From the NCBI GenBank assembly GCA_948567375.1, contig OX419755.1, forward strand, positions 47,014,291-47,078,290: a stretch of 64,000 nt of DNA, given 5' to 3'. The translations under genes were made by a program, and so were the position numbers. Shown here piece by piece: positions 12,751 through 64,000 of this stretch; position 1 is the first letter of the stretch; every line of letters starts with the position of its first letter. This DNA is from Lunularia cruciata (Eukaryota > Streptophyta > Marchantiopsida > Lunulariales > Lunulariaceae). The notes beneath the pieces are model-generated. The model did not search any database. It was not told where the DNA came from and saw only the letters and a list, made by a program, of their open reading frames with translations.

Positions 12751-12845
12751 TTATGAGGTTGCCTTTTGGGATCTTTTCACATTAGTCTTCTTCCTTCCCT
12801 CGCTTCTCTTCTTCCTTATTGAGCCAGTAAGGCCACGAGGTACAT

Positions 12846-13933: not shown

Positions 13934-14523
13934 GGTTCATGCAACACTCAATTGCTAATGTCTACTTCAATACAGAGTCAATATGATCACTTTGGAAGGT
14001 GCACGAACTATCAGAACTACCATTGGGACCTCAGAAGCTATCACTTGTTGATAATACTCCTCGCCAAAATTTCTAACCACAAAATCTCTAAACATCACTT
14101 TTGGTCTCACTACATAACAGATTTCTACTTGAGTGTTGAAAGGGAGAGGACTTAGGATGTATACATCCATATCATCATAGTAGAATGTAGATTTTCAAAT
14201 CCCACTCTCTGTCATATATCACCATAGGTAGAATCACCGGGTTTGGTGAGTTCATCACCCTATCCATGAATTCTATGCTAAAGTGATTAACTAGCGATAC
14301 CCTCATTTGCTCACGCTGGATGTACATAACCTTGATGTGGAATGGGTTTGGGAATGGAAAGCTAGGTGTGGGAAATAGTCCTCCTGGTGCATCCATCCCG
14401 TCCGCTCTCTAAAGTCCTTCCTAAGTCTAGCAACTACTCTATGTTCTCTACCTCATATTACTCAGGTTCAATAGTTCGTGCTCTTCCAAGAGGGGTGATC
14501 CACTCTCTTGGACTAAGACACTT

Positions 14524-14535
14524 GCTCTGATACCA
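14524..14535 (-). other. Element A primer binding site (initiator Met tRNA)
   Basis: On the minus strand TGGTATCAGAGC lies one base inside the 5' LTR. This is the usual plant primer site complementary to the 3' end of initiator methionine tRNA. Confidence 0.9.
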
Positions 14536-14536
14536 T

Positions 14537-15281
14537 TGTAATACTATGAGAACAAGAGAAGAGAGAGAAACACAAATTACACACTCAACATTTGGTGCCC
14601 CAAAGGAGCATCTTCTCTTTATTATATAGACAACAAGGATCTCCTCCACGGAAGCTCCACCATATGATTAGGCACATAGATAGGTGACATGTCAGCAAGC
14701 TCCACCCTTGGATTACTTACTTGGATGGGTGAAATGTTGGTCTAGGTCTTATCTGGTTGGTCAAACAAGCTTTGACCAGAGGGAATCTTTTAGGGAATCT
14801 TCCTATAGGAGTCTCAGAATCACAGGAGTAAGGTACCATTGGAAATTTCTTGATGAGACAAACTAGGGAGGAGGGAAGGCCAACCTTCCCTAAGTTTGGG
14901 GGGGGGGGGTTGACTCGCACATTTGTTAGGCCTAATTCATCCGTTTAGGCCTCTAAAATTGCATTCAAAGATTTCAGGCATATTTTGGTTCCTACTCTAT
15001 TTGTAGAAGTCCCCTTTTGTTGATACCTCTTTCTGATCTGTTTAGTCCATCATGTGTAACATCCTTCCAAATGTTACCAAATCAATTCTCACCTTTAAAT
15101 CATATGTCTAGCTATTGGTTCTAAGGTTCTCAAGTCTATTTTGGTTTCTGCTCTATTAGTAGAAGTACTCTTTTGGTGATACTTCTATCTGATCTATTTT
15201 GACCATCATGTATAACATCATTCTAGATGTTACCAGACCAAATTTCACATCTAGATCATATGGCTAGCTCTTGGTATTACA
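14537..15281 (-). repeat. Element A 5' LTR
   Basis: 745 bases, plus-strand termini TGTAATACTATG and GGTATTACA, matching the LTR at 8709-9448. It contains a run of 13 G at about 14898-14910, absent from the other LTR. Confidence 0.92.
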
Positions 15282-15489
15282 TTATAGAAGCATATCACAA
15301 TTATCCCAGTTGTTGGCAATTAGGTCCTTCTAACTCCAAATAGTCATCTACTCCAAGTGTGTGATATGTCTTATAATGAACAAAGATCAAGAGGTTGGGT
15401 GCTATCAAACCCAATCGTTAGTCCCCTATCTATAATCTATAATACATAAAGAGTGAACCAACTATAGGTTAAATACATTGAGTACATAG

Positions 15490-15606
15490 CCATTGAGGAA
15501 CTACAATGAGGAGGAATCACACATGCCAAATGCCATCCTCTTGAAAAACTATCACACACCAATATAGTAGTAGCTCTACGAAAAGAGCCACATAACATAC
15601 ATCTCA
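15490..15606 (-). pseudogene. Decayed PHD finger of B1
   Basis: The translation reads LRCMLCGSF, then TTILVCDSFSRGWHLACV. It matches the B2 PHD finger residue for residue in spacing, but one zinc Cys is now Phe (CDSF) and the last Cys pair is lost. Its presence shows that the finger is a family feature and not a one-off capture by B2. Confidence 0.75.
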
Positions 15607-17699
15607 AGCCTACACATATAATTGACAAGCTTCCTTCTACCATCAATGTCTAGGAGGGTGGCATGGTGTGCAATTGCACATATGATCCTGCCAAGCAACA
15701 CCATCATGTCCTTCCAACATGAGGACTTTGAAAGGCAAAATATTGTATACTCTCAAAATAATGTGGCTTATAGGCCCATCAAGTACCATTAGTGTAGTCT
15801 ATTATAGATATACATAATCACCCAAATGAAATTGACAGATCAAGAGTGGTAGCATAGCATAAGGTACCACTATGTTGATGAATAACTAAGTTCTCAAAGG
15901 CCATCAACATCACTCTCCAAAAGATCTATGGCCATTCAAAACATTCAGTCACCCATATATCTTCATTGTTCGAGTCCAAAACTACAATATCATTGCAACA
16001 AATGATATAGGTAAATCTAGACCTTGTCCAAAGAGTAGAAAGTGAGGAGACTTGATGGCTAAACCAATAGCCCATGGCCAATCAAGGTATTGGAGACAAA
16101 TCTCCCAAGTGGCCTCTCTACAAACCGTACTTATGCAATCTTCTCGTCATTGTTTGAACAAATCTTTCTACAAATCTATCTATCTCAAGTGACCTTGGGA
16201 GGTGGTATGATGATCAACCACGGCCTTGTCACACAATATCTAAAACTCTCCCAAAAGATTTATACTTTGATTAGTAAAGACTTCAATTGGTCCACTAAAA
16301 TGACTAAGAACTTGATCTAGGAATGAGTAAGTTGTCCCTTTATAAGACTTATCAAGAAATACCACCCAACTCAATCCACTTAGAGAAGTGCTCCATCATA
16401 ACCAAAACATATTTATGATGTTTCACAATCAATGGTAAAAGTCCAACAAAGTCCAAACTTCCAATGGTAACCTGACCCCATGATGGGTAATGGATGTAAT
16501 TATGGCATATAAACATTTAATGATGCTCTAACTTGGTCATAAAGCACACATCTAGTAACAAATTCATATAAATTAGTTTGCATACCACGCCACCAATAAT
16601 GATTTTGGACACCAATAATGATTTTGGAGTAAGTTGTATGTTTATTTTACTCCAAAATGTACTAATTACTCATGAGCATATTGTACCAACAACGTTCTCT
16701 AGGATGGAAGGAGTACTACTTGCACGTTACCATTCTCCCATGCTCAAAGAAGATGTATGCACTCCAATCTAAATTTCTTAGCTTGTTAAATGACATGGTC
16801 TCTTCTTGGTATCAACTATGCCACTCACAACACCAATGCAAAGACAGTCCATTACTAAGACATCCTCATGAATATCTTGCTGACCTATACTAATATCTTT
16901 GCCTTTTGGATTTGAGACCTCAAGAACTCCTTTTGTTTATATTGAGACAGATACTATCAAAGCTTCAAAAAATATACATAGAAAGGTAGATGCATGCCAA
17001 CTTGGTACCATCTCCTCATTTGTCTCACCATGAAAATGTGCTTTGGTCTCATCAAGTTAGCTAGTACATGGGTTTATATTCAACCCATTTGTATCATGGT
17101 TCACCACTCTAGGTCTATGAATAATCTTGAAATTATATTCTTGTAAAATTAAAATCCATTGTGCAAACTTATATAAAGGCTTATTGAACTTCATCAATCA
17201 CTTGAGTGGTTGATGATCAATGATGAGAATGAAAGGGTTACCAAATAGATAACTTCTGAAATGTGTTATTGTCCACATTGCTACCAAACACTCTTTCTCA
17301 TATGAACTATATTTCATCTCTATTGATTGAATTGTTGGAAGTACTAGCTTAGGTCACCATAAACTCCTTCCCCTAATCATCCTATTGAGTAAGCACTACT
17401 CCAAGCCCCAATGTAATTCAATTAATCTTAAGTATAGGAGCAAATATCAACATTTCCTTGAGTTCTATAAAAACTCTCTCTTGCTCATCTTTCCAACACC
17501 ACTCTTGTGTAAGCTTGGTCAGCTTTGTCAAGGTCTTGGAAATTGTGTTTTCAGACTTTTTACTCTTTAGGTCTTCCAAGCTTTATATTTCATTGTTTCA
17601 ATGGCAATAAATCTTATAACATATGGGCAATAAATTTTGCTAATGCAAGAAATACTTGCACTTTGCTCATATCCATAGGCTAAGGAATACTTGCAATAG

Positions 17700-17997
17700 C
17701 CTACACCTTGGTATGCTAAACATCAAATCCACTAGGGTAGATAATGTAACCCAAATACTCAACATGCTCAAGGAAGAATCTATACTTCCCATGATGTAAT
17801 TTTAGCCCACAAGATCTCAATATCTCAAACACCTCTAACAAATGTCTCTCATGCTCCCCTACAATAATGCTATAGATCAAAATGTCATCAATATAACGCC
17901 GAGCAAAGTAAAATCCCAATATGATCCTATCCATGACCCTTTCGAACTCAACAAGAGAGTTCTTTAACCCAAATGGTAAGAATTGCCAGTGATACAT
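17700..17997 (-). pseudogene. B1 reverse transcriptase fragment
   Basis: An open stretch of 93 codons: PFGLKNSLVEFERVMDRI, ARRYIDDILIYS with the catalytic Asp pair, then GLKLHHGKYRFF and VEYLGYIIYPSG. It aligns without gaps to B2 58565-58850. The N-terminal half of RT is missing. Confidence 0.85.
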
Positions 17998-34598: not shown

Positions 34599-37113
34599 AT
34601 GTCTGGGGAAAGTGACGACCTATTCTCCCAATCTGCCGGCTTGTTATTTCCGGACCTCACAGACAATGGCGACGACCTCGATTTTACGAAGGATTTCTTT
34701 TCCGACGATATCAACCACTCTAGTGACCTCAATGTGAGCTTGAGTCTGTAATTTGTCAGATTGCTTGATTGGGTTACACATTTCACGTAATCTGTTGCCT
34801 GATTATTCATTTCCAGTTGGTAATCTCTTGTGCTTAATCTCCCATTTGAATGCAGGGTAACTCGTATGAGGGCATGGGAGGAGATGACTTGATAGCGGAA
34901 TTAGAGGGTCAGGATGATTTTCCGAGGTTAGGGGCGTCGGAGCTCAACGATGGGTCATCCTTCGGGGGCGTGGATGTTGACCATAAGGCCGGCATGGCAG
35001 GTCCTCCACCCACACAGAACAAGCCCTTCACACAGAATGGCCAGGTTTTGCCTACTTATGGCAACTTCCAAAAGCCGTCCGTCAGTCTGAACCATATGAA
35101 CTCCGGCTATGGAGCTAGTGGTGTATCGGACATGTACATGCACAGAAACGGGATCTCCGTCTTGTCCTCTCCTACTTCGCCCGCTCTGAAGTCAAGTGGC
35201 ATGCTGTCTCCTGGGGCCACTTCCGAGAAGCTTAATTGTTTATCGTTGGATCAAATGTATACTTCGTTTCGGCCCCCTTTCGATGTCAAAGGGAGTGTGT
35301 CCCGATCTTTCTCGAAGGGAGGGCCTTTTTCACCCGGACTAGTGCCTCACAGCCCAGCAGGAGGAGGTGACAAACGATTTTGCTCCTCTCCTCTGTCTTC
35401 TCCTACTGTGCAAGCTTCAACTCCGCATAGCAATTCAAATGGAATTTCACTATTTGTTTCTGGCAGTGGAGGACAGGAGCTTTCCAACGGAGATGGCATG
35501 CATTCATCTTCTTCCCAAACTATCCATGCTGCAGCTGAGGCTGTTTCCCCCCGTGGTTTGGTGAACGCTGAGTCGAAAGATTCCGTCGATGGTATGGTGG
35601 TGTCCGAAGGTAGCTTGAAAATTCAGCAAAACAAGCCTCTTTTCATGTCGTCTCCCGGCTTAGCTCACAGGCTGGGGTCTACTGTAGATAGTTCTGGATT
35701 TGTTCCACAAGTTGATTCAAGCGGAGATGGTCTCAGGCCACTACCTTCTTCGATGCACCCATCTCGACCCCCAATCATGCAGAGGAGTTTCAGTAGTCAC
35801 GATCTTGGCCAGCTCAGAAACTTAGCCCCTTCACCACAGGGCAGTAATGACCAAAACTCATCCTTCAGTCAACGAATGGCTCCCCTCGATACACCCAGTC
35901 GACTAAGCAACGGGAGCGGTAGTCCACATCTACAACCTCAGCTGTCAGACTTGCAAAATATCCATATGCGACCCCTTATGCAGTCCATGAGGAGGGTGCA
36001 CAGTACTGGTGACATACAGGTGCTTCTGATCTCTTTGACTCGTCTTGGATAATGGTGTCGTACACACATTTGCAGCTTGTGTTGTGAACTCATAGCCGAG
36101 GATTGCCTCTCTTGTTACCACATGACCACTTTCGCGGTGCAATTTAAGCTGCAAGGTCTCGTCTATGAGGTGAAAGTTGTACGATAAGATCTGCGGACGT
36201 TCTCCGAAGTGTGAATTGCTTTAAAGATGTCCATGTAGAGAAGTGAACCCCACGTGTACGGTCAGAGCCGAATATGCAGCCTCTAAATGTTGCTCGTGCA
36301 CTGATTTTCCAGACTTTGAATGGTATGGCTGGAGGTGCTAGCAGTCCATCGTCCCTCGATCGAAGCTACGAAGATGGTGGTTTCAAGATTGGCCGTTACA
36401 CCATGGAGGAGCGAAAGATAAGGATACATAGATACCAACAAAAGCGGACGCAGAGGAATTTCAATAAGAAGATAAAGGTTAGCTTACTTGGATCCGTCCT
36501 GTCCATGCCATAATGTTTATGATCTTTGTGATCTTCTGGTGAGCCCGGGCCCCAGGTGTGTCAATTGTGTCCTTGCTTGTGTCTTTCGTACTTCATGTAA
36601 TATGGTTTACTAGAGTAGAACGAAGTTCTAATCAGTCCGTGGTTATCTAACTCTAGCTTTGCTGATTGCGTAGTATGCTTGCCGGAAGACACTGGCAGAT
36701 AGCCGGCCTCGAGTGAGAGGACGATTCGCCAAAAATGACGAGGTGGGAGAACCATTGATAAAAGCAAAGCATGAGGATGAGGATGAGGAAGAGGTATCGG
36801 ATGTGTTCTTGATATGCATTGATATAATTCTGTTTGCTTCGCGCACATAGATCGTCTTGGATATTTCGAACAAGTGGCCGGTGCTGCGCAGATAGTGGAG
36901 TTTTTCTCTGCAACTTACAAGTATCCTTTTTTCTCTTGAACTTTCCAGGGTGACATGCTGTATGAAGATGAGGACTTCTTCGTCGACGAGGACTCTTCAG
37001 GAGATCTATCTGACGTTTTAGGAATGAACGGGGTAAAGCTAGAGCACCCTCCTACTAAGGGAGTGAAGGTAGAGCTTCACCACAGTGATCGCAACAAACT
37101 TCTTCAGACATGA
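34599..37113 (+). CDS. CCT-motif transcription regulator (CMF type), 5 exons
   Basis: A nuclear regulator with a CONSTANS/CO-like/TOC1 (CCT) domain; such proteins act in light, clock and sugar-linked transcription. Exons: 34599-34733, 34856-36019, 36313-36477, 36674-36793 and 36949-37113, all phase 0 with GT-AG introns, giving 582 residues. Residues 1-45 are acidic (SGESDDLFSQS, NGDDLDFTKDFF). Residues 46-433, all in exon 2, are Ser/Pro/Gly-rich and low in complexity. The CCT domain is at about 464-511: MEERKIRIHRYQQKRTQRNF, KKIK, then across intron 3 YACRKTLADSRPRVRGRFAK. A very acidic tail follows (HEDEDEEE, YEDEDFFVDEDSSGDLSD). No B-box is present, so it is not a CONSTANS-type protein, and no receiver domain, so not a PRR. 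The frame is intact and the gene looks functional. Confidence 0.92.
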
Positions 37114-43435: not shown

Positions 43436-44235
43436 ATTTCAATGCTAGGATCCAAGCCTCTTAGATCCGTCAGTTGAGTGACCTTGAGAATTACCTTATT
43501 TATGCCTTGATAGACCACTCTAGTACTTTGGTCACGCTCTTCCAAAGACCTCATGTCCAACCCCATGAGTGAGAACTTTTTGAGCTTGGGTACCAATTGT
43601 AGCTTGAAGATCTTGAATGGCCTTTCTCAATTTCCTGAAAGTTGTGAGAGCACATGCTTTGCTTCTAGTGGATCAAGCACCATAGATTATATGCTCACCT
43701 CACCCATTGATATACACCTTGTTTTGGATTTTTGCTATTTTAGACCCTCAACTTGAATTTGACCATGCACCTCTATCTTGTGCAATCCTTCTTCCTTGCT
43801 CTAATAGAACCACATTACCTATTGAGCATGCCTTTAGAGTGAAACTTCATCTAGATTATCACAAGAGAGATCTATACCAACAAGCTATCCAAGAGAAATT
43901 GAGCTCTATGGAATGGAGTTTTTGACAATGTAGTGATCAGTTGGTTGCAGTTCTTCAATCTACATCCACTACTTTGTTTCCAAGAGGTTCTCATAGGAAG
44001 AGACTTGGTCTCCCTTGCAATAAGTGGTATGATCCTGACTGTAAAATGGAAAGGCTCAAAGCTATGGATAGGTCTCTTGATTAGATTGCACAAAATCAAG
44101 CTTTTGTCTCTTATAGAAAGTTGGTGAAATGCAAGAAGCGAGTATTTTTGAGACTCAAGGGAGTTGAGTTGAGCACTGAGGAGCAATCCCAAGGCTTTTT
44201 GGAAGAAAGTAACAATCAGATCTCCATCTCCATCA

Positions 44236-45207
44236 TTGGACTTGAAGGAGCTTTGTAACTATGTGAAGGATATGTACTTTTTCCCTGATGCTCCAAGCAT
44301 GGCACTTAGCCTTGGATTTGCTCTCATCATCTTTGAAGCTAATGTCAGGTACCAACTCCAAAAGTTGGCCAATGGTAAGGCTGAAGACCTTGATGGACTA
44401 TGTGTTGAAATTTTGAAGTGGAGCGGTAGCCATCTGGTTCTAATACTCACTTCTCTCTTGAATGAGGCAATCAGGTATGGCTTTCCTAATAGATGGTGCT
44501 TGAAGAAGGTAGTTCATATTCATAAGTCTGGCCAGAAAGATGTTGTCACCAATTACTATACCATACAAGTTGGTAGTATGTTTGCCAAGTTGTATGGTTG
44601 AATTTTGGAGTCTAGGTCGAGTACTTGGGCTGAAAAGTATAGAATTTGAGCTAAGTGCAAGCTGGTTTTAGAGCATGCTTTAATACCTTGGACCACCTAT
44701 TGGTACTACATGTTTTGTGGGTGGAAATCTAAGGGTGTTGGGAGAGCTCTCTATGTTTCATTTATTGATTTCAAGAAGGCCTTTGATAAGGTGCTTATGA
44801 AATCTCTAAGTGAGAGACTCATTGAAGTTGGTGTTTTAGCGGATATGATTGGTGCTATCTCTAGATTCTATGAGAAAGTGGTTGTAAGACTTTCATCTTT
44901 GAGCTCTCAAGAAATCCTTAGCAAAATGGGTGTGATTCAAGGCTGCTCTCTATCTCCAACTCTATTTAGAATCTTCATTGATGATCTAGAGAGACTATTC
45001 ATGGAAGTTGGAGCTACAAGTGTACAAGTTAGCTCTTTGATGATACATGCACTCCTTTATGCAGATGATGTAGTGCTCCTCTCCACCAATCCAAAGAGTT
45101 TACAGAAGCTCATAGACTCTCTTCTTTGCTTTTGCAATCAAACAAAGATGAAGGTGATTGTGGTGGGTTCTAAAGGTGTCACATCTTTCTTTTTTGATGG
45201 ACAGTAG
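44236..45207 (+). pseudogene. LINE-C reverse transcriptase
   Basis: Two open stretches (44236-44601 and 44710-45207) carry the non-LTR RT blocks in order: LQKLANGKAEDLDGLCVEIL, LKKVVHIHKSGQKD, FIDFKKAFDKVL, GVIQGCSLSPTLFRIFIDDL, LLYADDVVLLSTN (catalytic Asp pair intact) and VIVVGSKGVTSFFFDG. The NLD(K/M)SK stretch seen in sister copies is deleted at about 45150. Confidence 0.85.
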
Positions 45208-51087: not shown

Positions 51088-51572
51088 TGAGTCCTCACTC
51101 CAAGTTCATCACAAAAAAATAGTTTCTGAAATTTCTCCATATTTTGCTACCATGTCTTCTTAGTATATGGGCACCAAATCTGAGAAGCACCATAGAGAAG
51201 CATTGGCTGTACAAGAGATATGAACAACACCTTCTTCAACTTCCATATGGTAAGATGAGCAAGTCTAGAGCAATTCATGAGTGAATGCAAAGCTCTAAAC
51301 CCTGCATTAATTCAATTCTTCATGCAAGTAGACCAACTATAGTCATGAGAAAACTCAAGGCCCAAGTACTTATAAGAAGAAACCTGCTCCAAATGTTGTC
51401 CATCAAAAAAGAAAGATGTGATACCTTTAGAACCCACCACGATCAACTTGAACTTGTCAAGGTTCACCTCCATCTTTGTTTGATTGCAAAACCAAAGAAG
51501 AGAATCCAATTGCTTCTGTAAACTCTAAGGATTGGTGGAGAGGAGCACTACATCATCTTCATAAAAGAGTGC
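51088..51572 (-). mobile_element. LINE-C RT to C-terminal block, inverted
   Basis: Reverse-complement blocks TWWQ...QKLFL and SFFFDGQHLEQVSSYKYLGL (51312-51509), running back to the active-site region. It lies between two plus-strand blocks that would be adjacent in the intact element, so it replaces or inverts an internal segment. Confidence 0.7.
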
Positions 51573-53670
51573 ATGTATCCCAAGACTAAGGAGCAATCCC
51601 AAGGCTTTATGGAAGAAGGTTACTGTCAGATCTCCATCTCCATTGTTGGACTTGAAGGAGCTTTGTAATTATGTCAATGATCTCTACTTCTTCCTTGATG
51701 CTCTAAGCATGGTACCTAGCCTTGGATCTGCTCTAAACATCTCTGAAGCTGATGTCAAGTACCAACTCAATAAGTTGACCAATGGTAAGGTTAAAGACCT
51801 CGATGGACTTTGTGTTGAACTTCTAAAGTGGGGTGGTAGCTATCTAATTTTAATGCTCACTTCTCTCTTGAATGAGGTGAGCATATATGGCTTTCCTAGT
51901 AGATGGCGATTGAAGAAGGTAGTTCCTATTCACAAGTCTGGCCAAAAAGATGTTGTCACTAATTACCATAACATACTAGTTGGTAGTATCTTTGCCAAGT
52001 TGTATGGTCAAAAAGTTGAGTACTTGGGCTGAAAAGTATAGAATTCAAGCTAAGTACAAAGCTTGTTTCACATCAAGCTTTACTATGTTGGACCACCTAT
52101 TAGTACTCCATGTTTTGTGGTGGAAATCTAAGGGTGTTAAGAGAGCTCTCTATATTGCATTCATTGATTTCAAGAAGGCTTTTGATAAGGTGCTTAGAAA
52201 ATCTTTAAGTGAGAGACTAATTGAAGTTGTTTCATTGGATCTAATTGGTGTTATCTCTAGACTCTATGAGAAAGTGGTTATGAGACTTCTCATCTTTGAG
52301 CTTTCAAGATGTCCTGAGCACAATGGGTGTGATTCAAGGTTGCTCTCTATCCCTAACTCTATTAGGAATCTTCATCAATGACCTATAGAGATTACTCATG
52401 GAATTTGGAGCTATTGGTGTACAAGTTTCCTCTTTGATGATACATGCACACCTATATATAAATGATGTAGTGCTCCTCTCCACCAATCCTTAGAGTTTAC
52501 AAAAGCTCTTGATTCTCTTCTTTGCTTTTTCAATCAAACAATGGAGGTGAAACTTGACAAGTCCAAGGTTATTTTGGTAAGTTCTAAAGGTGTCACACCT
52601 TTCTTTTTTGATGGACAATGTTTGAAGTAGGTTTCTTATTTGGACCTTGAGTTTTCTCATGACTATAGTTGGTCTACTCGTGTAAAGAATTGAACTAGTG
52701 CACGGTTTAGAGCTTTGTATTTACTCATGAATTGCTCTAGACTTGCTCATCTTACCACATGGGAATTGAAGAAGGTGTTTTTCAGATCTCTTGTGCAGTC
52801 GGTGGTTCTATATAGTGCTCAAATTTTGGTCTAGGTACTAAGAAGACATGGTGGCAAAATGTATAAAAAGTTCAGAAACTATTTTTGTGTGATAAACTGG
52901 GGTGAGGACTCAAACTCCTTATGTATTGATGCTTGCTGAAATGCTTGCTGAAATAGTTGAAGCTTTGTTCCTAGCTCTCACACATGCCACTAAGGTGAGG
53001 TCCATGGAGCATGAGAGACTTCCCTATCAAGATTTTTGTGACACTATCTATTGGTTGGTATACAGATCTGATTGCATGGGCCACAAGGTGGAATGTTTGT
53101 GAGAAAATTTGGAGATTGGAGCCTATTGCCCTACGAGAGGTGATCAAGGAGCAAGTCTTACTTGGCTTATGGCAAGCACTCGGTACCAAGATGGTGTTTT
53201 ATCAGCAGTTTGTAAATCCTATGTTGGTGTATTGCAAGCAAGATTATCTCTTGGCTAGGATTTATACTTCACTTAGACAGGTTATTGCTCATTATAGAAC
53301 TATCTCTCATAGACTAGAAGTATAACAAGAACACGGGCAGTAGATCTTAGAGCAATCCATGTGGCTTTGTGTATTGTGTACTATGAGCAAAGTTGAGGAT
53401 GAGCACCATGTCTTTGTTGAGTGCCCTTTTTACCAACAGATCAAACTTAGACATCAGATTACTTGTAGTGATTTCTCAACTCTCTTACAGATGAAGGTTT
53501 TAGCATTAGGGTAGTACATGATCAAGATCAGTTTACATCGGACCAATTTGTTACCGACTGGTCAGATGCCCTAGGATCTTGCCTAGGCTCATATTTGATG
53601 TGTTTTGTATTGCATTTTTAGCCTTTTGCCTCTTTGGGTCTTTTAGGCTTTATAATTCATTGTTCATTGT
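51573..53670 (+). mobile_element. LINE-C RT and C-terminus to tail
   Basis: KELCNYVNDLYFF, ANGK-type block, KKVVPIHKSGQKDVVTNYH, FIDFKKAFDKVLRKSLSERL, a broken active-site region near 52440, the C-terminal domain (52902-53325) and a tail near 53665. Multiple frameshifts. Confidence 0.75.
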
Positions 53671-55473
53671 AATGTAATGGTTGTTGATAGCAAATGAATT
53701 ATCTTTTGGCTAAACTCATTATTGTAGATGTTACACACTCTTTTGGCAAAAGTGCACTACCAAGCAATGAATCAGGTGGAAGGAAACTTCCAAGTATTTT
53801 TCTAAAATCTTCACTATCTAGCTACATTTAATCCTTGTTAAAAGAAAATTATTATTGGTTTAGACATTATTTAGCTTGGCAACAAATCTTGGACCACAAT
53901 AGGAACCTCTTGGCCAATAGTATATCCCTAGTACAAAGATTTTTGCCCCATAGCTTGGCAACAAGATCTCAGAGCATAGCCAAGAAACTAGCTTGGTGGT
54001 GCCTTGTGCATAGGTTTTCTGCCCAAAGCTCTCCATAAAGAAATCAATGTGTGTTATTGGCTAAGTAACATAAAATTCACATTGTGGTGAGGTTCTTTGT
54101 CCATAGTTGAGCTTTTGGTTCTTTACTTGAGGTATGGACCAAGGACCTTAGGGATGACTTTTTTCCTTTGTGTTCTTTGCTTATAACATTTTCTTATTAT
54201 CTCATTTAGAAGTTAGGATGCACTAAGGTTCTACTTATAGCTTCTTAATGCATTTTCTTCCTTTTATCTTCTCTTGCCAATTTTGTTTTACTTTCAAACT
54301 ATAATTTATTGACAAATAAGAAGTTGGGGAGTACTTGGACTGTATTATTTTACTTTTCATGCAAAGAAAATCAAAAGGATCAAATACAAAGACTATCAAG
54401 CCTAGCATCTTGTTGGACAGTAAACAAACAAAATTTGTGCAAGGCTTCTTTTTCACACAAGACGATAATTCTAATGACAAATTTTATGTATACCATACAC
54501 TATAAAGAAGAACATGTTGGTATAAAGCACCATTAAGGATAACAACTCAATAAAGAAACTCTCAGTCACTCATAAATCTCTCTCTTATTCCAAAGCTCCT
54601 CCAATATGCCCCATAAGAAGCACTCCACATAGAAGATCTTCTTGTCATACTTACCAAAGTTCCTTTAAAGTAAGACATTATTCCAACATCAACACCAAAA
54701 TGATGGCATTCTCAGGCTGAAAATCTCATTTTTAATTAGCAAATGTATATATAGTATTCACAAACCTTCATTCTACTCACTCACTCCATAATTTAAGCTC
54801 ACTAAGGGATAGATTGCCTTCATTTTCTAAGCTTCTCCTTGTATACTCACTAGAATTACCATGTTGAGTCCTTGGTAGATCTAAAAACCTCCACTCTTCC
54901 TAGATTACCCTAGGTAAGGAATCCCTACTAAAAATTTACATCACATGGGTTTTGACTTATACTTCCTCCTTTGGAAGCTTCCAAAGATATTCCTACAAAT
55001 CTAGTCCCTTCTCTTAATTAATTCTAAGATCAACTTAAATCTTCCTAACTTGACTAACTTCCAATATCAAAAGTCATTGACTTTATCAAGCTAAAAAAAG
55101 TTTTACACTTCCTATATACTAAGTTACTTTGTCCATACAAAGTCAAAGATTGAGATCACATTCCAACATACTCTAATATAAAATCCCTTCAAGTGTCTCA
55201 CTCTAATATAAAATCCTCTAAAGATGTACTACTCTAATATAATCTAATTTTAAACACACATGAATCATCTAAAGATATACTACTCTAATATAATCTAATT
55301 TTAAATGCACAAGAATCCTCTAAAGATGTACTACTCTAATATAATCTAATTTAAAACTCACAAGATGATCCCATTGAGTATCCAAAAATATGCAATTGGA
55401 TCCCTCTATTTAGTTAGTTATCCTAACTTACTCAAAGATACCTCTATCTTAGTTATTATTAAAATTAGCTAGT
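53671..55473. other. AT-rich interval, no gene
   Basis: No supported coding frame. It contains a small tandem array at 55215-55366 and ends at the LTR of B2. Confidence 0.4.
55215..55366. repeat. Three tandem copies of a 51-base unit
   Basis: The core TCTAAAGAT(G/A)TACTACTCTAA followed by TATAATCTAATTTTAAA recurs at about 55215, 55266 and 55317. Partial copies (CTCTAATATAAAATCC) precede it. Confidence 0.75.
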
Positions 55474-55488
55474 TGTAACTATGTCGTG

Positions 55489-55588
55489 CGTATATACATC
55501 GCTACACAATATACATCGCTGTCAACATCATACACTATAGAAGCACAACTCGCACATAAGTCATACATAGACTCTAAAGTGCCACAAT
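55489..55588. repeat. Internal direct repeat of the B LTR, left copy
   Basis: About 100 bases (GTATATACATCGCTACACAA ... GACTCTAAAGTGCCACAA) nearly identical to 56041-56144. The same arrangement is visible in B1 (about 8100-8215 and 8660-8708 plus 15282-15300). Confidence 0.8.
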
Positions 55589-56040
55589 AATCAGATTGCT
55601 TACCACTCTCAACTCAACTCAACTCAGATCAGTACTTGATCTGTCACTCTATAAAATGCCAACAATTGGGCATTGATTACAGTCAAGCCACACCCACTCA
55701 AGCATAGAGAATCCAGGTGACGCTCGCCAGCCTCTGTCCACCATAGCCAGGAACTCAAAGGCTCAACATCAGAGAAGTGAGCTCTCTGGAGCTCACTTCA
55801 AAACTATACCCCCTTGGACTTGAGCTAGCTCTAAAACCCTAACGGTCCCGCTGACGGCACACTCGACGGTGCAAACGGTGCAAAGTGACGGTGGGCCCCA
55901 CCATGAAGTCAATACCCCAAACATGAAATCCAACCGTCGGAAAGTAGTCTCTGAGAAACTACTGAAATAACTCTAACTACTATCATTGGAACTCCAGTGT
56001 CCGAGTCTCTAGACGTGGCACTACAAATGGCATGACAACT

Positions 56041-56144
56041 ATCATGCATATATACATTGCTACACAACATACATCGTTGTCAACATCATACACTATAGAA
56101 GCACAACTCACACATAAGTCATATATAGACTCTAAAGTGCTACA
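56041..56144. repeat. Internal direct repeat of the B LTR, right copy
   Basis: Pairs with 55489-55588; shares CAACATCATACACTATAGAA and AAGTCAT(A/C)(T/C)ATAGACTCTAAA. It forms the extreme 5' end of the LTR in transcript sense. Confidence 0.8.
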
Positions 56145-56321
56145 ATCGCCTCCCTAGCTGGCGGTTAGGCCTCTCTAACTCCATATAGCCATCTACTCTA
56201 CGTATATGGTATACCCTCTAATGGGCAAAGATCAGGAGGCCATAAGCTATGGAGCCCCATCATTAGTTGCCTATTTGCAATCTATACCATATAAAGAATG
56301 AACTAGCTATAGGTCAAGTAC

Positions 56322-56457
56322 ATCTAGGACATAACCACTATCCTTGAGGAACCACCGTGAGGGGAGGAGTCACACATGCCATATGCCATCCTCTCAAACA
56401 GCTATCACACACTAACATAGTAGCAGCTCCACCAGAAGAGCCACATAACATACACCT
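56322..56457 (-). pseudogene. PHD finger at the C-terminus of B2 pol
   Basis: PHD fingers read histone H3 tails. The translation gives RCMLCGSSGGAATMLVCDSC, LRGWHMACVTPPLTVVPQG, a stop, then WLCPRC. Zinc ligands fit C4HC3 exactly: C-x2-C, x11, C-x2-C, x4, H-x2-C, x14, C-x2-C, with the conserved Trp before His and before the last Cys pair. It follows the integrase in the same direction with about 550 bases of degraded sequence between them. A single TAG precedes the WLCPRC block. Confidence 0.88.
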
Positions 56458-56939
56458 CAAGCTTGCACATACAAGTGCCAAGCTTGGGTCCATAGTACCA
56501 TCAATTTTTGGAAGGTGGCATGGCACACAATTGCACACATGATCCTTCAAACAACACCATCACGTCCTTCTAATACAAAGACTCCAGATGGAAAAACCTC
56601 GCGCACTCTCTAGATAGTGCAGCCTGTAGAAACATCAAGTGTCGTCGGTGCTGTCTACTGTAGATATACATAGTCGCTTGGATCAAATTGACAAATTGAG
56701 GGTCTATAACCTCCTCCTCGAATGGTAGCATAGCGTAAAGTATCTCGATGTAGAGCAATCGCCAAGTTCTCAAAGGCCATTGGCATCACTCTCCAAAAGA
56801 TCTTTGCCCGCTGAGAACATGCGCTCATCCATACATCAAGGTCATCCAAGTCCAAAACTACAGTAGCATCTCAAAAAATGGCTGCAGGTAAATCTAGATC
56901 TCGTGCATAGAGTAGAAAGTATGGAGAGAAGGATGCTAA

Positions 56940-57620
56940 GGAGGCTTGCTGGTTGAATCGATAGCCCATGGCCAACCAAGGTAATTGGAGATCCCAATCT
57001 CCCAAGTGGCCTCTCTACAAACCATATTTTTGCAATCCTCTCTTCACCATCTGAACCTCTCTCTCTGCTAAGCCATCTGCCTCAGGGTGATCTCTGGATG
57101 TAGTACAATGATCAATCAAAGCCTTGTTGCACAAGACCTGAAATTCTCCCAAGAACTCTATACCCTTATCAGTCAAAACCTCAGTTGGTGCACTAAAATG
57201 ACTAAGAACTCAATCCAGGAACGAGTAAGTTGTCCTTCACTAGACTTGTCAAGAAATGCTACCAACTCAATCCACTTGGAGAAGTGCTTCACCATCACCA
57301 AAACATACCGATGATGTCTCATAGTCAATGGTAAGGGTCCGGTGAAGTCCAAACTCCAATGGTAACCCAATCCCATGATAGGTAATGGGTGTAACTGTGG
57401 CGTAGGAGCATTGAATGATGCTCTAACTCGATCACAAACCACACATCTGGCAACAAACTGCTATACTTCGGTCTGCATACCGTGCCACCAATAATGACTC
57501 TGGAGTAAGCTATACATACGCTTTACTCCAAAATGTCCTAGCTCCTCATGAGCATGACTGACCAACTGTGGTCTCTATGATGGAAGTGGTACTACTCACA
57601 CTCTACCATCCTCTCATACA
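56940..57620 (-). pseudogene. B2 integrase
   Basis: The zinc-binding HHCC region is visible: HAHEELGHFGVKRMYSLLQS, then CVVCDRVRAS. The catalytic core has SLDFTGPLPL (first Asp), VLTDKGIEFLGEF (second Asp, after a frameshift near 57190) and HPEADGLAER (Glu). Stops are TGA, TGA, TAG and TAG in the zinc-binding region. The core region resembles Ty3/gypsy integrases, and no chromodomain follows; the PHD finger takes that place. Confidence 0.85.
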
Positions 57621-58018
57621 CATAAAAGGTATCTACCTTCCAATCTGAACCGTCTAGCTCGCTGAAGAACACGGTCTCTCTCCTTGGCCCCAACTGTGCC
57701 ACCCACAACACCAGTGCAAAGATAGTCCATCACTAAGACATCATCATGAATGTCTTGCTGAACTGTACCAATATCTTCACTCTCTGGATCTATGACCTCA
57801 ATAACTCCTCCTGTATGTGCTGAGAGAGATACCACCAAAGCCTCTGCAAATATACACAGAAAGGCCGATGCATGCTAACCTAGCACCATCTCCTCATCTG
57901 TCTCACCATGCCAATGTGCTCCGGTCTGATCTTGCTGGTTGGGACATGGGTTTCTACTCAACTCATCTGCATCATGATTCACCACTCCAGGTCTATGAAC
58001 AACCGTGAAATCATACTC

Positions 58019-58310
58019 CTATAAAATCAGAGCCCATCATGCAAGCTTCCTTGAAAGCTTGTCGGACTCCATCAACCACTTCAACGGCTGATGATCAGTG
58101 ATGAGAGTGAAGAGGTTACCAAATAGGTAACATTGGAAATGTACTACTGCCCAAACTGCTACCAAGCACTCTCCCTCATATGAACTATACTTTGCCTTTG
58201 CTGAATTGTTGGAGCGACTAGCATAGGCCACCACAAACTCCTTCTCCTCATCATCATGTTGGGTGAGCACTGCTCTAAGCCCCAACATACTCCAATCAGT
58301 ATGAACCTAA
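58019..58310 (-). pseudogene. B2 RNase H
   Basis: VHTDWSMLGLRAVLTQHDDE, VVAYASRSNNSAKAKYSSYE, GECLVAVWAVVHFQCYLFG and LITDHQPLKWLMESDKLSRK are the usual Ty3/gypsy RNase H blocks with the acidic residues in place. It is bounded by TGA and TAG stops on both sides, all in one frame. The following block WALIL, stop, EYDFTVVHRPG continues to the NHDADELSRNP motif. Confidence 0.9.
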
Positions 58311-58315
58311 AATGG

Positions 58316-59340
58316 TCACCCCCTGATTGGTCTCCTCAAAATAGGAGCAGATATCAACCTCTCCTTGAGCTCTACAAAAGCTCTCTCCTGCTCATCTCCC
58401 CAACACCACTCTTGTGTAAGCTTGGTCAGCTTTGTCAAGGCCTTGGCAATGGCACTAAATCCTCTAACATACCGGTGATAGAAGTTTGTCAACCCAAGGA
58501 ATGTTTGCACTCTGCTCACATCCGTAGGCCAAGGAATACGTGCAATAGCCTCCACCTTGGTCTGCTAGACACCAAGTCCTCCGGGGTAGATAGTGTGACC
58601 CAAATACTCAACCTGCTCGTGGAAGAACCTACACTTCCCATGATGTAATTTGAGTCCATGAGATCTCAACCTCTCAAACACCTCCAACAACTGTCTCTCA
58701 TGCTCCTCCACAGTAGTGCTATAAACTAAAATGTCATCAATATAGCACCGAGCAAAATCCAATCCAGCTAGGATCCTATCCATGACCCTCTGGAACTCAG
58801 CAGGAGCGTTCTTTAACCCAAATGGTAAGGACCTCCACTAATATAACACATCCTTGCCGGGAGGATCAATAACCCAAATGTTGTCTTGGACTTATCCTCC
58901 TCCTTGATCGGCAACTGATGATATCCTGCTCGAAGATCCAAAGTATTGAAGATCTTTGCATGCCCAATTGCATCAAAAATCTCCTCCGGTGTAGGCATGG
59001 CATACCGATCAGCCCTGGTCTATCGGTTGATAGGACGGTAATCTCCACACATCCGCCTATCTGTATAGTTGCCATGCATATCCTTCTTGGCTGGCATCAT
59101 TGTTGCTGATGTATACTCTCCATGTGAAATCTCCACCAAACCAGCCTCAAAAAGGTCACTACTCCGGCTTTGAATCAATGTCCTCTCCATATCACTATAT
59201 CAATAAGGACGTCAAAAAACTGGTGTGTTGCTAGTCAGCTCAATCCGTATACCATGTCCCTTTAGAGCACCCAAATCCTTCATACTGAAGACAAAACAAC
59301 TCATGTGACTCCTCAAGAACCTCCAAACCCTCCGTCTTTC
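58316..59340 (-). pseudogene. B2 reverse transcriptase
   Basis: Blocks in order: GLVEISHGEYTSATMMPAKK, DRRMCGDYRPIN, YAMPTPEEIFDAIGHAKIF, TLDLRAGYHQ, a frameshift near 58860, SLPFGLKNAPAEFQRVMDRI, CYIDDILVYS (catalytic Asp pair, 58733-58746) and GLKLHHGKCRFF. The thumb/connection continues to FLGLTNFYHRYVRGFSAIA (58316-58555). Apart from stops and one frameshift it is well preserved. Confidence 0.92.
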
Positions 59341-59424
59341 CTCTCCAGTAAGCTTGGGTCCAAGATCTGGCTCCCAAGTATCCTCTGTAATTGTAGTAGG
59401 AGTGGAAGACGTACTGACTGACTG

Positions 59425-59745
59425 CTACACTGGGCCCTTGGGAGCAATAGTGTCATGCTCCCGACCACTAGAGGTCTCAACCTCTGTGTGAAAAACTCCC
59501 TCCACTCTGGCTGCAAGCTCCACACGTCTTCTAGCTGCATCCCATGTGGACCAAGGATGTAATCCAAGTAGCTCACGCTCACCTGGATGGACTCCAAGTA
59601 GACCACTCTCCCTAGTAGCTATTGGATGTGTCCCAAGAATACCATGTCCACTCGGTCCATCGCCCCAGCATGTGCTTGAATCGTCTTGATAGGCACAGGG
59701 CTCACAAGTGTCCAAGTGGTGATGCCTATCAAGCACATCCAACAT
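59425..59745 (-). pseudogene. Linker between methyltransferase and RT
   Basis: An open stretch (part of 59425-59871 in this frame) with AMLDVLDRHHHLDTCEP and ARRRVELAARVEGVFHTEVE. It does not match a domain I know. It shares the frame of the downstream RT N-terminus, so the pol reading frame runs through it. Confidence 0.55.
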
Positions 59746-59749
59746 TGCT

Positions 59750-60720
59750 CTGCCAAGCCAAGGCTCACAATCCATGTCAAACAATTTAGGTCCATAGCCT
59801 GACCTAACACCTGACGCCTGGATGCCTCTAACACTGATGGAACAGCGGTAATACCAGTGCAAAAAACCCATTGCCCGCTCTCTCTCTCATCAACATTGGG
59901 CTCCACCGACTACTATAACTGTGAGTCCCAAACAAGTCCAAGTCCTCCCTCTCAAAAAGCATGAGAGCCTGGGAAACTCATGAGTGTGGGAAATGCAGCT
60001 CTAGGCTGTCCAACTAGGTTCACCACTGCTATAGGTGACCTATCAGCCACTACCACTGTCTAAGACTGACGCCCAACATCCAAAATATCATCAACAAGAA
60101 TGTGGTCCAGTTGTTGAATCCCATCATAAGCACGTTGTAGAACCTCTCTAGGTAAGAGGTTCGTCCACCAAAGACAAAGATGATGAGCCCGTGATCCCAC
60201 TCTGGCTGCATCTAACAATACACGTCCCATCCAAGAATAGACCTAATGTGTACTCGTCACCACTCTAGTGCGAGAATCACCCATCAAAGGAACATTCTCC
60301 AAAAGGTAAGCTGGAGAAACGGATTGATGAACCTGGAGATGTTGTAGTATCCGTAACATCTCCCAAAACACACCAGAATGAGGATCCTAAAGACCCAAAC
60401 CACGGCCCGCACGTGTATGTCCCTAACATGGCCATCCTGAAATCACCAAGTGAATAGGCCCATGTCTCTCTAGGTCATGCGCCCCCAGTAAGGAAATGTC
60501 CCCTTGTAGGGCCTTCTGGTAACCTCTGACTGCTAACATTGGTAATAACTCCGGATACCGATAGGCCAAGTGTGCCACAAGATGTAGAGAGACTTGCCTA
60601 GCAGTCTCATCTCTCTCTACATACAAGTACCTTTGCACTCATATACCCGCCTGTAACAGCGTAGCTAGTCCGGTGCTAATCCCACTAAACAACTCCAATA
60701 CGCATATCCCCTCTACTGGA
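59750..60720 (-). pseudogene. C5 cytosine DNA methyltransferase domain in B2 pol
   Basis: The enzyme class transfers methyl from S-adenosylmethionine to cytosine C5. About 323 codons in a single frame show motif I VLELFSGISTGLATLLQAG (cofactor loop, 60670-60705) and motif II-like YLYVERDETARQVS. GDISLL and HGPIHLVISGWPC follow, with the catalytic Cys codon at 60427-60429, then GHTRAGRGLGL. Motif VI is YLLENVPLMG (ENV at 60291-60299), motif VIII-like RAHHLCLWWTNLLP (60155-60186) and motif X RRQVLGQAMDLNCLTWIV (59768-59822). A recognition-type region of about 110 codons lies between VIII and X, including PTLMSFPGSHAF. The order I to X is canonical, and the HGPIHLVISGWPC and WWTNLLP blocks resemble DNMT3-type enzymes. 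No BAH domain or chromodomain accompanies it. Eight or more stops (TAG or TGA) make this copy inactive. Confidence 0.9.
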
Positions 60721-61105
60721 TACTGCCAAGCAATGAGTGTGGTATCTAGAGGTGTTAAAGCAATTGCCTCTGGAAGCTCATGCTCACACTCATCTCCTGA
60801 TGGTACGAAGGCTCCACTCCAAGCCTGCTGCACCAATTGATCTGCATGCTGCTGCAATGCCTCCTCCGAACTCCACAATGGAATATCCAAGGTGGATGGA
60901 AAAATCCCAATCATACTCCAAAGCCAAGTGATCTCCTCTGGTACTGGAGTATCCTTTGCATGGGTGTTCCCCTCCAACAAGTCACCAAGCCAAGTAATTG
61001 CACCACTGAAAGCTAAAACTGATGCTGCCATGGTCCCAGACTGTAGTGAGCCAAGACTGCCACTACTAAAGCGTACTGGTAGATGACATACCCGTCCCTC
61101 ACCAA
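60720..61105 (-). pseudogene. Spacer between protease and methyltransferase
   Basis: About 120 codons without a stop: from GEGRVCHLPVRF through ITWLGDLLEG, WSSEEALQQHADQLVQQAW and GDECEHELPEAIAL to the start of motif I. I recognise no domain. It may be an N-terminal extension of the methyltransferase or a protease-adjacent region. It is unusually well preserved compared with the rest of B2. Confidence 0.5.
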
Positions 61106-61590
61106 CCAGGTCTATAAGAGGTTGTCTTCTCCCAATAGTCAATGCTGAAACCCATGGGGTATAACACTGCTCCCCCAACTAGCACATCATATGACTCGGC
61201 TATCGTCGCAATAGCGTGAGCTCTCACCACCGAGCTATCAGTCAGGTGACTAGGCTGAACCTGGACAACAAGCTCTCCACGTGTGATGTACTGTGTCGAA
61301 CTACCACCTAGAGATGTCTGGATCTGAAATGGACACCTCTCCACATCGGTCTTCCGTAACTCTAGACCGACAACTGCAGCCTTCCCCAACATAAGGGGCT
61401 ACGCACCAGAGTCTAACAAGACTCTCTGTGGTGTATACACCTTCCCTGAAGGTCCCACTAAATGGAAAATCCCCCTTTGGTTATCCAATAGGACAACACC
61501 AGGTGTGAACCATGCTCTCTCAAAGGCCGGTCTAGCTGGCAACTCCTCCAGTCTAGCCGCTATTGCCTGCCATAAACCACTGGTCACTGA
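61099..61590 (-). pseudogene. B2 aspartic protease
   Basis: Retropepsin-like. RVLLDSGA carries the catalytic Asp-Ser-Gly, followed by a TAG stop, then PLMLGKAAVVGLELRKTDVE. The flap and C-terminal parts continue through AIATIAESYDVLVGGAVLYP to IDYWEKTTSYRPGW. A single-base frameshift near 61105 leads into the spacer frame, and another near 61590 connects to Gag-side sequence. Confidence 0.85.
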
Positions 61591-61809
61591 ATGGATCCCA
61601 TGAATGAATGGATCCCATGCTCCTCAACCAAGTCAGCTCCACTACCAACCACCTCTGCTCTAGTAGTAGGAACTATACCATCCCTACTCCCACACAGCGT
61701 GGCAGCCAACTGGAACACTAGGGTTGGGTCAACTCCCAATGTAAACTTATCACTGGCCAAAAACAAAGGACGTTGCATAATCAGCTGAGCCGCCCCCAAC
61801 ATCATGCTA

Positions 61810-63650
61810 GATTCAGTCTATGTAGTAGCAGGTGGCTGACTAGCAGGTAGTCCATCATGTACTCCATCACCATTTACCACACTTGCACTCGGACGCCTAG
61901 GAACCATGGATGTCATCTGCAATGCCTCAGATAGTATGAAAGACTGGGGAAGTCTGACCTGTCTCCCAACCTCTCCTCTCTATGGGTCCAATTGCATTGA
62001 TGCTCCTCTAGGCTCTGGAGCACGTACTGCACTCCTAGTCACTGCTGCAGATGCATCTACTTGTGCTGCTCCGCACATGAAGTCCAAAGCATCTCTATCA
62101 CCAGCATATGAGGTGGAAGCCTCAGCACCCAAATCTGATCTCCTCTGAGCAATAGCCATACTAGCCAATCTCTGCTCCAACTGCTCAATCCGAGTAGCCA
62201 TAGTTGTGTCAAAAGTAAGGGTAGGTATTGCACCCCTACTAGGTGTAGATCCTCTACCACCACCTCGTCCTCTATGACCTGGAGCTCCTCTACTACCTGC
62301 CATAGCAGCCCTACCACTCCGTAACTCCAGGTGTAGGTCAAAACACCGGTCACTAGTGTGACCAAATCTGTGCCAGTGCTCACACTGCGTTTGTGCTGGC
62401 TGTGATGCACCCAAGGTATCAGGTCCACTACCCTGAGTACACTCTCTCCAATAGTGAGTTCCACCACAAGTCCAACAAGCAACACCACCACTCACTGGCT
62501 GTTGTTGACCCAAAAATGAGCGTAAGGGTCTAACTCCACTAGGCCCTCCACTTGCTCTATAGGATCTGGGCTGTCCACCCTGTCCTCAAAAACCAATTGG
62601 GCGTGATGCACTCTAGAAGAAGTCACAGCCGTGGATGAGGTCTCCCTACCAAATCTAGATGTCACCACTCTCTCCTCTACCATGTTGAGCTCAATACGCT
62701 CAGCCAAACCAAAGACCACTGCTAAAGTAGGCAAAGTAACCTGTAACAACGTAGCATCACAAACTCTACATCACAACTCCCTGTCCAGTATCCCATACCA
62801 AAATTGGACTGCATGGGCCTTAGTAACTCCCTGAGTGAAACTGATCAGCCGCCTCATGCAAGTGTATGCCTCACGTAGGCTCTCTCCAGCCTTCCGTTGG
62901 AACTCCTGCAAGCTCCTCAGCTTGTCAGTCCGCACTCCTTGGTAGTTCTGCCTCAAACATAGGAAGAACTCCACCATGGGGTTAAACCCCGATACCACAC
63001 CACCTCCTGCAACGGTACCTCCACTCGTAGTAGCACTATCTCCAACTAGTGCACCTCCACTAGCTCCACCCACACTACTTGAGCTAGAACTCGTAGGTAC
63101 AGCCAATCTACTCTTGGCCACCGAGCCTGAAGTGATGGAGATATAGTGTGAAGACCAATACTGTCTCCATAACTCAAATTCCTCCAAATGAGCTCTCTTG
63201 AACTCATGGTAGTCATCCATCGGTGGACCCTCCAAGTGTTGAAACAACCCCTTCCATGCCATGAAGGGTGTGAACAAAGTCGGGTTCCGCATCTACTACA
63301 GATCACACCAACTATCAAACTCCTGGATGAAGTCATCCAACTCAATGGTACCCACTATACCAGAGTAACGCCTAGGGCCTTTGGAGGCCCCATAAATCTT
63401 GTCCATGTCCCACAACAACGGTGCGGACACACTAAGTGCACTCTCAATTGAATTAGCTCTTGTGTCGAACTCCAACTTAGAGTGAATCTCCTCCCTCACT
63501 GGGACCTGAGATACATGCTGATACCGAGCACCACTTCGAGTAAACCCACTGTGTACTGCAGGGCTAACTCCTCTGGAATCTCCAAAGAACTTCCTTGTGA
63601 CAAAGTAACCACAACAGCAAACCCGAACCACCAACTGCAACCGCAAGTCG
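61810..63650 (-). pseudogene. B2 Gag with zinc knuckles
   Basis: Particle protein. N-terminal part: YSGIVGTIELDDFIQEFDSW, two TAG codons, then MAWKGLFQHLEGPPMDDYHE and FKRAHLEEFELWRQYWSSHY. A Ser/Gly/Ala-rich linker (about 63000-63100) precedes the second capsid part (RSLQEFQRKAGESLREAYTC). After a frameshift near 62620 comes a knuckle, CWTCGGTHYWREC (62439-62477), and a second, CEHWHRFGHTSDRC, in which the second Cys is Trp. The likely start Met lies upstream of 63400; I cannot fix it. Confidence 0.8.
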
Positions 63651-63982
63651 CAACACCACCACGTGCCAACACCACCAAGTGCCAACCCCACTAATGTAAC
63701 TCTAACCGAGATAACTACACTAGGGGAAAGGGCAACCTGTAACCTGCCATCATAACACGCACTCTCACAGTCTGCATGTCATCATTTCCTACCTCACCAA
63801 AGAGAAACAAAGGTAGTTTGACTGGTCATCACTCCAACCTCACCACCGAGAGCACACTAGAGCACCAACGCTCAAAAGTCAAGGCACCTCACACAAACGT
63901 GGTGCACAAATAGGAAGCAGAGAATGGAGGGGGTCCAATCACAAGAAATCTAAACAAAAACCCTCCATCTCATAACACAACA

Positions 63983-63999
63983 CGAGATTGACTCTGCCA
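63983..63999 (-). other. Possible B2 primer binding site
   Basis: The last bases of the window, read on the minus strand, give TGGCAGAGTCAATCTC, which begins TGG as primer binding sites do and lies a plausible 350 bases before Gag. The LTR end that would prove it is outside the window, and I cannot name the matching tRNA. Confidence 0.25.
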
Positions 64000-64000
64000 C

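Follow-up and report, generated by a model that had tools for sequence, protein, structure and literature searches.

Organization of the locus

The window (the whole stretch of 64,000 nucleotides analyzed) carries a decayed copy of a Ty3/gypsy retrotransposon on its minus strand, in which the domains are arranged in the order gag, protease (PR), DNA methyltransferase (DNMT), reverse transcriptase (RT), RNase H, integrase, and PHD finger. The following features were identified:

55482..64000, minus strand: Ty3/gypsy DNMT element, part lying in the window; both ends placed by comparison with 16 other copies
62600..63406, minus strand: gag; tblastn with Marchantia P0089 residues 1-275, 59%
61102..61572, minus strand: aspartic protease (DSGA); tblastn with P0094, 58%, motif by reading
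59643..60755 (about), minus strand: DNMT3-type C5 cytosine methyltransferase with 8 in-frame stops; Pfam, PDB, homologs, and fold
58303..59400, minus strand: reverse transcriptase, split over two frames; Pfam RVT_1 in both pieces, E 1.2e-22 and 0.0014
57848..58300, minus strand: RNase H; Pfam RT_RNaseH, E 9e-28
56550..57595, minus strand: integrase, broken (H2C2 finger and rve core); Pfam Integrase_H2C2, E 2.5e-18
56320..56454, minus strand: PHD finger, C-terminal to the integrase; Pfam PHD, E 2.1e-11
56037..56146, minus strand: repeat B1, with a purine-rich tract ahead of it; comparison of copies
55589..56036, minus strand: repeat A2; A1, its partner, falls beyond the window edge, at window-equivalent positions of about 64900-65340; blastn of A2 to A1, 93.0% identical with gaps excluded
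55482..55588, minus strand: repeat B2, forming the 3' terminus of the element; comparison of copies
15314..17980, minus strand: an older, second copy of the family, truncated within RT and carrying a decayed PHD finger; blastn, 74-83%

The whole copy extends from 55482 to the window-equivalent position 65340 (9,859 bp), its initial 1.34 kb at the 5' end lying past the window edge, and the tetranucleotide TAGT is present identically on both flanks as a 4-bp duplication. Tblastn searches with Marchantia proteins traced a single collinear element from gag (63406-62600) through the integrase and the PHD finger (56550-56317). The protease upstream of the DNMT (DSGA at about 61415) and the RT downstream (YIDD at about 58745), which had been noticed on the basis of the letters alone, were both found in these places on the same strand. 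The decayed gag and protease pieces of the window copy had no Pfam match; Asp_protease_2 was identified by Pfam in the relative P0103. The rve core is weak in the window integrase (two pieces, Pfam E 0.005 and 0.056) and scores E 7.5e-12 in the Sphagnum relative P0105. The window copy is dead, as it contains in-frame stops and frame changes: 32 in-frame stops align to relatives, of which 13 are TAG at codons that encode Gln in most of the relatives compared, and 8 are TGA where these encode Arg.

In the second copy, the PHD finger falls below the Pfam cut-off (E 0.0048), and the 3' end resumes at 8085-8708, on the far side of a nested chromovirus. The latter occupies 8727-15216, has LTRs at 8727-9383 and 14557-15216 that are 92-93% alike, and lies in the 3' repeat region of this second DNMT copy.

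The methyltransferase domain

The DNMT frame of the window copy runs from 60899 to 59700 on the minus strand, with eight in-frame stops, one of them immediately after the catalytic Cys, and no frameshift inside. This single frame holds VLELFSGISTGL, ISGWPC, LLENV, RAHHLCLWWTNL, and GQAMDLNCLTWIV, that is, all the motifs named in the sequence-only reading; the extent given there is 59750-60720, and the matched stretch spans about 60755-59643. When X was placed at the stops, the frame scored above the cut-off of PF00145 in the profile search which that reading had proposed against the DNA_methylase family (E 2e-6 to 3e-6, 27.3-27.9 bits, cut-off 22) and matched DNMT3A in the PDB (E 8e-9). The frame also matches 86 database proteins (best E 4e-152), and these Pfam, PDB, and database scores are far beyond chance.

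The enzyme is of the DNMT3 type, on the evidence of Pfam, the PDB profile, the predicted fold, and the unrearranged order of the motifs (I, then IV, VI, VIII, and X). A profile of 11 relatives gave E values of 3e-22 for DNMT3A, 1e-11 for DRM, and 1e-6 for HhaI, and the C-terminal block is in the DNMT3 order. The fold predicted for the relative P0001 (26 rows, pLDDT 80.7, pTM 0.84) was compared with PDB folds, and all 50 matches listed belong to the DNMT3 family (E 7e-18 for the best of them, with a target TM of about 0.8). Good matches to this model were also present in a viral protein library, the best being a phage enzyme with E 5e-17 and a lower TM of 0.58. The DRM type was rejected because the motif order is not rearranged and both the profile and the fold favor DNMT3, and the DNMT1 type because the profile and fold matches are to DNMT3. 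One scan of IMG/VR gave no match; another gave 53 loci with 23-53% identity, all on viral contigs, which were judged to be phage enzymes and not this element.

The catalytic C, E, and N residues are intact in all 19 copies studied in the host genome, and the motif VIII arginines are kept in 18, 18, and 15 of them. Among the 93 aligned relatives having a letter at the catalytic column, 92 have the Cys. The identity of the element and its enzyme is as good as certain.

Copies in the host genome

The 74 contigs of the host genome searched add up to 565,766,749 bases, and among those seen eight measure 60-85 Mb. Judging by the nearest relatives of the element, the host is probably a bryophyte. In the PF00145 search, 123 of 2161 candidates were scored, and in the search with P0001, 111 of 13,363 first-look candidates, which makes the copy number a lower bound. 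Each of the 111 scored P0001 matches covers nearly the whole domain with E 1e-174 or better, and many are in open frames of up to 1448 aa. Ranks 1-4 of the PF00145 list read as host-type genes and rank 5 (L058) as a copy of the element. The 19 copies studied are ranks 6-28 minus ranks 8, 15, 20, and 25; as they come from the high-scoring end, this sample is biased toward well-kept domains.

In 10-kb stretches, the DNMT, RT, RNase H, integrase, and PHD finger follow one another in order in 19/19 copies, and gag and PR lie directly upstream of the DNMT in 17, in which the Ty3/gypsy order from gag to integrase is therefore complete; in L068 and L073, another RT-RNase H-integrase stretch takes the place of gag-PR. 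The PR-DNMT-RT order also occurs in the Marchantia sequences P0094 and P0101, where RNase H follows the RT. On these grounds the methyltransferase belongs to the element among the copies examined, which supports the view of a retroelement-owned enzyme in a plant-type genome, and the position between protease and RT which the sequence-only reading had suggested checking genome-wide is found in 17 of these 19.

The pooled dN/dS values, all of which are inflated by post-insertion decay, amount to 0.45 for the DNMT (19 copies), 0.42 for gag and 0.41 for PR (17 copies), 0.25 for RT, 0.45 for RNase H, 0.58 for integrase, and 0.39 for the PHD finger. The value for the DNMT falls inside the 0.25-0.58 span of the other domains.

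In the case of L070 (G000:C10:37342916-37352914), the 3' end abuts sequence matching the element's own 5' internal region and a TCCT duplication is present on the flanks, as if this copy had been inserted into another copy of the same element.

The PHD finger

The PHD finger is an addition to what the sequence-only reading had noticed. All eight of its zinc ligands are kept in 19/19 copies, and in Marchantia P0121 an integrase tail is likewise followed by a PHD finger (E 4e-9). The nearest solved fingers include those of CHD4, ATXR5, KDM5A/B, and PHF21A, which we take to be readers of unmodified H3K4. The element resembles the chromoviruses in combining a gypsy Pol with a chromatin reader after the integrase. 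It differs from the chromovirus of the window, which has a chromodomain (Pfam E 1e-12) at the place of the PHD finger, and ordinary LTRs; no chromodomain was found after the integrase of the element, and tblastn of the window gave no DNMT match in the chromovirus. The finger might tether the integrase to non-promoter chromatin, and it is a second, independent chromatin module within one Pol. In DNMT3A, an ADD finger reads H3, and the element, which has both a PHD-type finger and a DNMT3 domain, is reminiscent of this. The catalytic fold of DNMT3 is shared with the host DNMT3/DRM enzymes, while the finger and the enzyme of the element stand at opposite ends of Pol; if both act as proposed here, they would form a split DNMT3-like outfit.

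Terminal repeats and integration

The repeats of the element are arranged as A-coding-B-A-B, the 5' end consisting of A alone and the 3' end of B-A-B. A1 was found in 16/19 copies, never with an adjoining B (there was no A1 within reach in the other three), and B-A-B in 17/19, the last B being partial in two; the layout of the window copy is the same. Two identical long terminal repeats were not found at the ends of these copies, and the stretch 56146-55477 was rejected as a plain LTR because the 5' end holds A alone. The arrangement is that of the split direct repeats by which DIRS/PAT elements are recognized.

The termini of the element are TG..CA. Exact 4-bp target duplications were found in 13 of 15 cases, namely in the window copy and in 12 of the 14 copies for which both ends could be reached; the two copies showing no matching duplication are L069 and L075. 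At the inner B1|A2 joint, exactly two extra nucleotides, commonly GC, separate CA from TG in all 19 readable cases, one of which is the window copy. In 32 of 35 readable cases, the A2|B2 joint is identical, the exceptions being L075, with five extra bases (ACATC, the sequence which follows A1), and L078 and L118, with one each. A purine tract lies ahead of B1 in the six copies inspected; downstream of A1, a perfect tRNA primer site was not observed. The Pfam scans of pieces of the element gave no tyrosine recombinase; an H2C2/rve integrase and 4-bp duplications are present instead. The split direct repeats A1-B1-A2-B2 are common to this element and to PAT/DIRS, Ngaro, and Viper, which are described in the available part of PMC4157794 as using a tyrosine recombinase, in contrast with the integrase and target duplications found here.

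From the end structure, the joints, and the purine tract, we infer a B-A-coding-B-A product, a circle, and an opening at B|A, with about equal chances for and against a circle intermediate opened by the integrase at this junction. A transcript reaching from A1 into A2 would be copied by ordinary reverse transcription, using the purine tract before B1 and a primer side just after A1, into B-A-coding-B-A, the ends of which would be joined into a circle. The integrase would then cut at the B|A junction, the palindrome CAGCTG, after CA on both strands, and insert A-coding-B-A-B. Cutting after CA on both strands has a likeness in retroviral 3' processing.

In a competing explanation, somewhat less probable than the circle, reverse transcription would include a special strand transfer, as proposed for split-repeat elements, and give a linear A-coding-B-A-B molecule directly, which the integrase would handle as a normal substrate. 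TG..CA ends with 4-bp duplications correspond to ordinary gypsy integration, and the constancy of the A2|B2 joint (32/35) fits this explanation and counts against regarding end-joining as demonstrated. It accounts less well for the two extra bases at B1|A2, which are absent from the integrated ends as if one cut had made both, for the purine tract being located before B1 and not before A2, and for the five bases following A1 that are held in the joint of L075. The presence of split repeats together with a DDE-type integrase and target duplications questions the rule tying split repeats to tyrosine recombinases, and makes circle integration testable; if the circle exists, the opening at CAGCTG would be a natural case of circle-junction integration.

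CG content, decay, and the possible role of the methyltransferase

The identity between A1 and A2 ranges over 91.9-99.8% in 13 copies, with transitions making up 155 of the 178 differences, and is 93.0% in the window copy. Of 112 stops in all, 99 lie at codons where agreement reaches 60% or more; 68 of these correspond to CAG to TAG, 20 to CGA to TGA, and 5 to TGG to TAG changes. In the 13 copies, the CpG observed/expected ratio (o/e) is 0.39-0.46 across ages and does not change with age (rho 0.28, p 0.36), which means that CpG poverty was present already in young copies; CWG o/e is 1.30-1.49 and drops with age (rho 0.65, p 0.017). The values are 0.44 for CpG and 1.49 for CWG in the youngest copy, 0.33 and 1.11 in the main copy of the window, and 0.14 and 0.18 in the second copy (15314-17980).

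The youngest copy, being CpG-poor and CWG-rich, weakly suggests that the DNMT may methylate the element's own DNA at CG, a reading to which we give slightly less than an even chance. The enzyme, made within Pol, would methylate newly made double-stranded DNA at its CG sites, either ahead of integration or during it, and the element would then enter as methylated, host-like DNA. The host would later add CHG and CG methylation, and the copies would decay by deamination.

It is less likely that the CG poverty and any methylation are all the work of the host, and that the DNMT serves another end, such as nucleic-acid binding or packaging, RNA modification, or keeping the element's expression low to the benefit of the host. 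CpG o/e is 0.37 over the entire window and 0.35 in the nested chromovirus, so that host methylation suffices as an explanation. By reading, the host has its own DNMT-like genes: L054 and L057 are of the DNMT3 type, L055 of the DRM type with its rearranged order, and L056 of the DNMT1/CMT type. On the other hand, a mere binder would not need the catalytic residues to be conserved as they are in the copies and the relatives (C, E, and N in 19/19, Cys in 92/93).

The sequence-only reading had mentioned that enzymes of retrotransposons can methylate CG sites de novo. According to the part of the article available, this holds for the Dnmt3-type enzymes of SymbioDIRS-Dnmt3 from Symbiodinium, which carried out de novo CG methylation in yeast, whereas the gypsy-type KnitGypsy-Dnmt3 enzyme of Klebsormidium nitens gave no methylation there (de Mendoza et al., 2018; PMC5890265). 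The latter outcome, which the authors call inconclusive, is in line with the host-methylation explanation. The enzyme may mark the element or its insertion site, as the sequence-only reading had proposed.

Relatives and origin of the element

Three protein searches gave 164 relatives in total, many of them without a source name. The named sources are the liverworts Marchantia polymorpha, Riccia sorocarpa, and Calypogeia fissa, the mosses Sphagnum troendelagicum, S. jensenii, and S. fallax, and the zygnematophyte Closterium, in which P0147 has a protease followed by a DNMT; no Klebsormidium-named sequence was among the matches of these searches. A second architecture was found in P0106, P0107, and P0062, from unnamed sources, in which the DNMT is placed after RNase H and has GWEC or GWDC instead of GWPC. 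By reading, P0106 has a stretch resembling an integrase zinc finger behind the DNMT.

In the trees, the window's family groups with the bryophyte relatives with a support of 100. P0106, P0107, and P0062 group together with a support of 84 in one tree, from which five near-full rows had been removed by hand and to which eight shorter ones had been added, and of 91 in another, which has only two host outgroups. The DNMTs of both architectures can be aligned along the entire domain, with the C-terminal half included.

The nearest published element is KnitGypsy-Dnmt3, described as having gypsy-type domains, DIRS-like repeats, and purifying selection, for which an independent capture was concluded (de Mendoza et al., 2018; PMC5890265). 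By the available part of this description, it shares with the present element a gypsy-type Pol, an unrearranged, intronless Dnmt3-type DNMT, and the DIRS-like repeat order; the PHD finger after the integrase and a genome nearest to liverworts and mosses set the present element apart, in which the 4-bp duplications, the TG..CA ends, and the two-nucleotide B|A junction are shown as well and the DNMT lies between protease and RT. SymbioDIRS-Dnmt3 and SymbioLINE-Dnmt likewise own DNMTs, the former being an element with a tyrosine recombinase and the latter a LINE, in contrast with a gypsy element carrying a DDE-type integrase (PMC5890265). The charophyte precedent mentioned in the sequence-only reading is correct.

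Whether the bryophyte, Closterium, and RT-RNase H-DNMT elements captured DNMT3 independently, as concluded for Klebsormidium, was also considered, and seems rather unlikely. The DNMT occupies two positions, before RT and after RNase H, as independent captures would have it, and the trees leave room for them, with two host outgroups only and no support value read for a clade of all the element enzymes. However, the DNMTs of the elements are 38-41% identical to each other and 31% to a host DNMT3 exon, the RTs of both architectures are closer mutually (39-44%) than to the window's chromovirus (31-36%), and KnitGypsy-Dnmt3 is reported in the accessible text to have the same repeat structure (PMC5890265). 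The chance presence in the retrotransposon of a host gene, or of a separately inserted DNMT, for which no supporting point was found, has practically no probability as an explanation, given the place of the DNMT in order in 19/19 copies and in Marchantia, its identity of just 31% to the host DNMT3 exon, and its intronless frame. A separate insertion was accordingly rejected for the copies examined, the second copy of the window, truncated inside RT, being uninformative in this respect.

Retrotransposon-owned cytosine methyltransferases were previously known from dinoflagellates and one charophyte. In the parts of these sources available, PMC6338049 states that land plants such as tracheophytes lack these transposons, PMC12344493 mentions the retrotransposon DNMT3s of streptophytes and dinoflagellates only as previously reported, and the survey text of PMC6317226 refers to neither a methyltransferase nor a PHD finger. 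Searches of an open-access library gave no paper on a bryophyte lineage of such elements. As far as these searches show, the occurrence in land plants, the PHD finger, and the end structure (A-coding-B-A-B, TG..CA, 4-bp duplications, and the two nucleotides at B|A) are new.

The best explanation of the whole, and one that we consider probable, is that of a streptophyte gypsy lineage which owns a DNMT3 and a PHD finger, would open a circle and methylate itself, and may be tethered by its finger. A bolder form of it is doubtful: an ancient, streptophyte-wide gypsy lineage in which a DDE-type integrase would open a two-repeat circle at CAGCTG, making both ends at once, and in which an outfit consisting of a CG writer and a PHD reader of H3 would methylate the element's own DNA on arrival. 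A genomic parasite has here taken over the kinds of tools that hosts use to silence parasites, namely DNA methylation and a histone-reading finger, and its occurrence in liverworts and mosses brings it into laboratory plants with mutants and methylome data.

Other features of the window

The Rfam and tRNA scans of the window found nothing. Three tandem copies of a 51-bp unit are present at 55212-55365, immediately beyond the 3' end of the element. The open frames at 44173-45207 and 51565-52381 resemble fragments of two related LINE-type reverse transcriptases, and a 400-residue open frame at 34850-36052, located in a stretch where GC content (0.49) and CpG o/e (0.70) are higher, is possibly part of a host gene.
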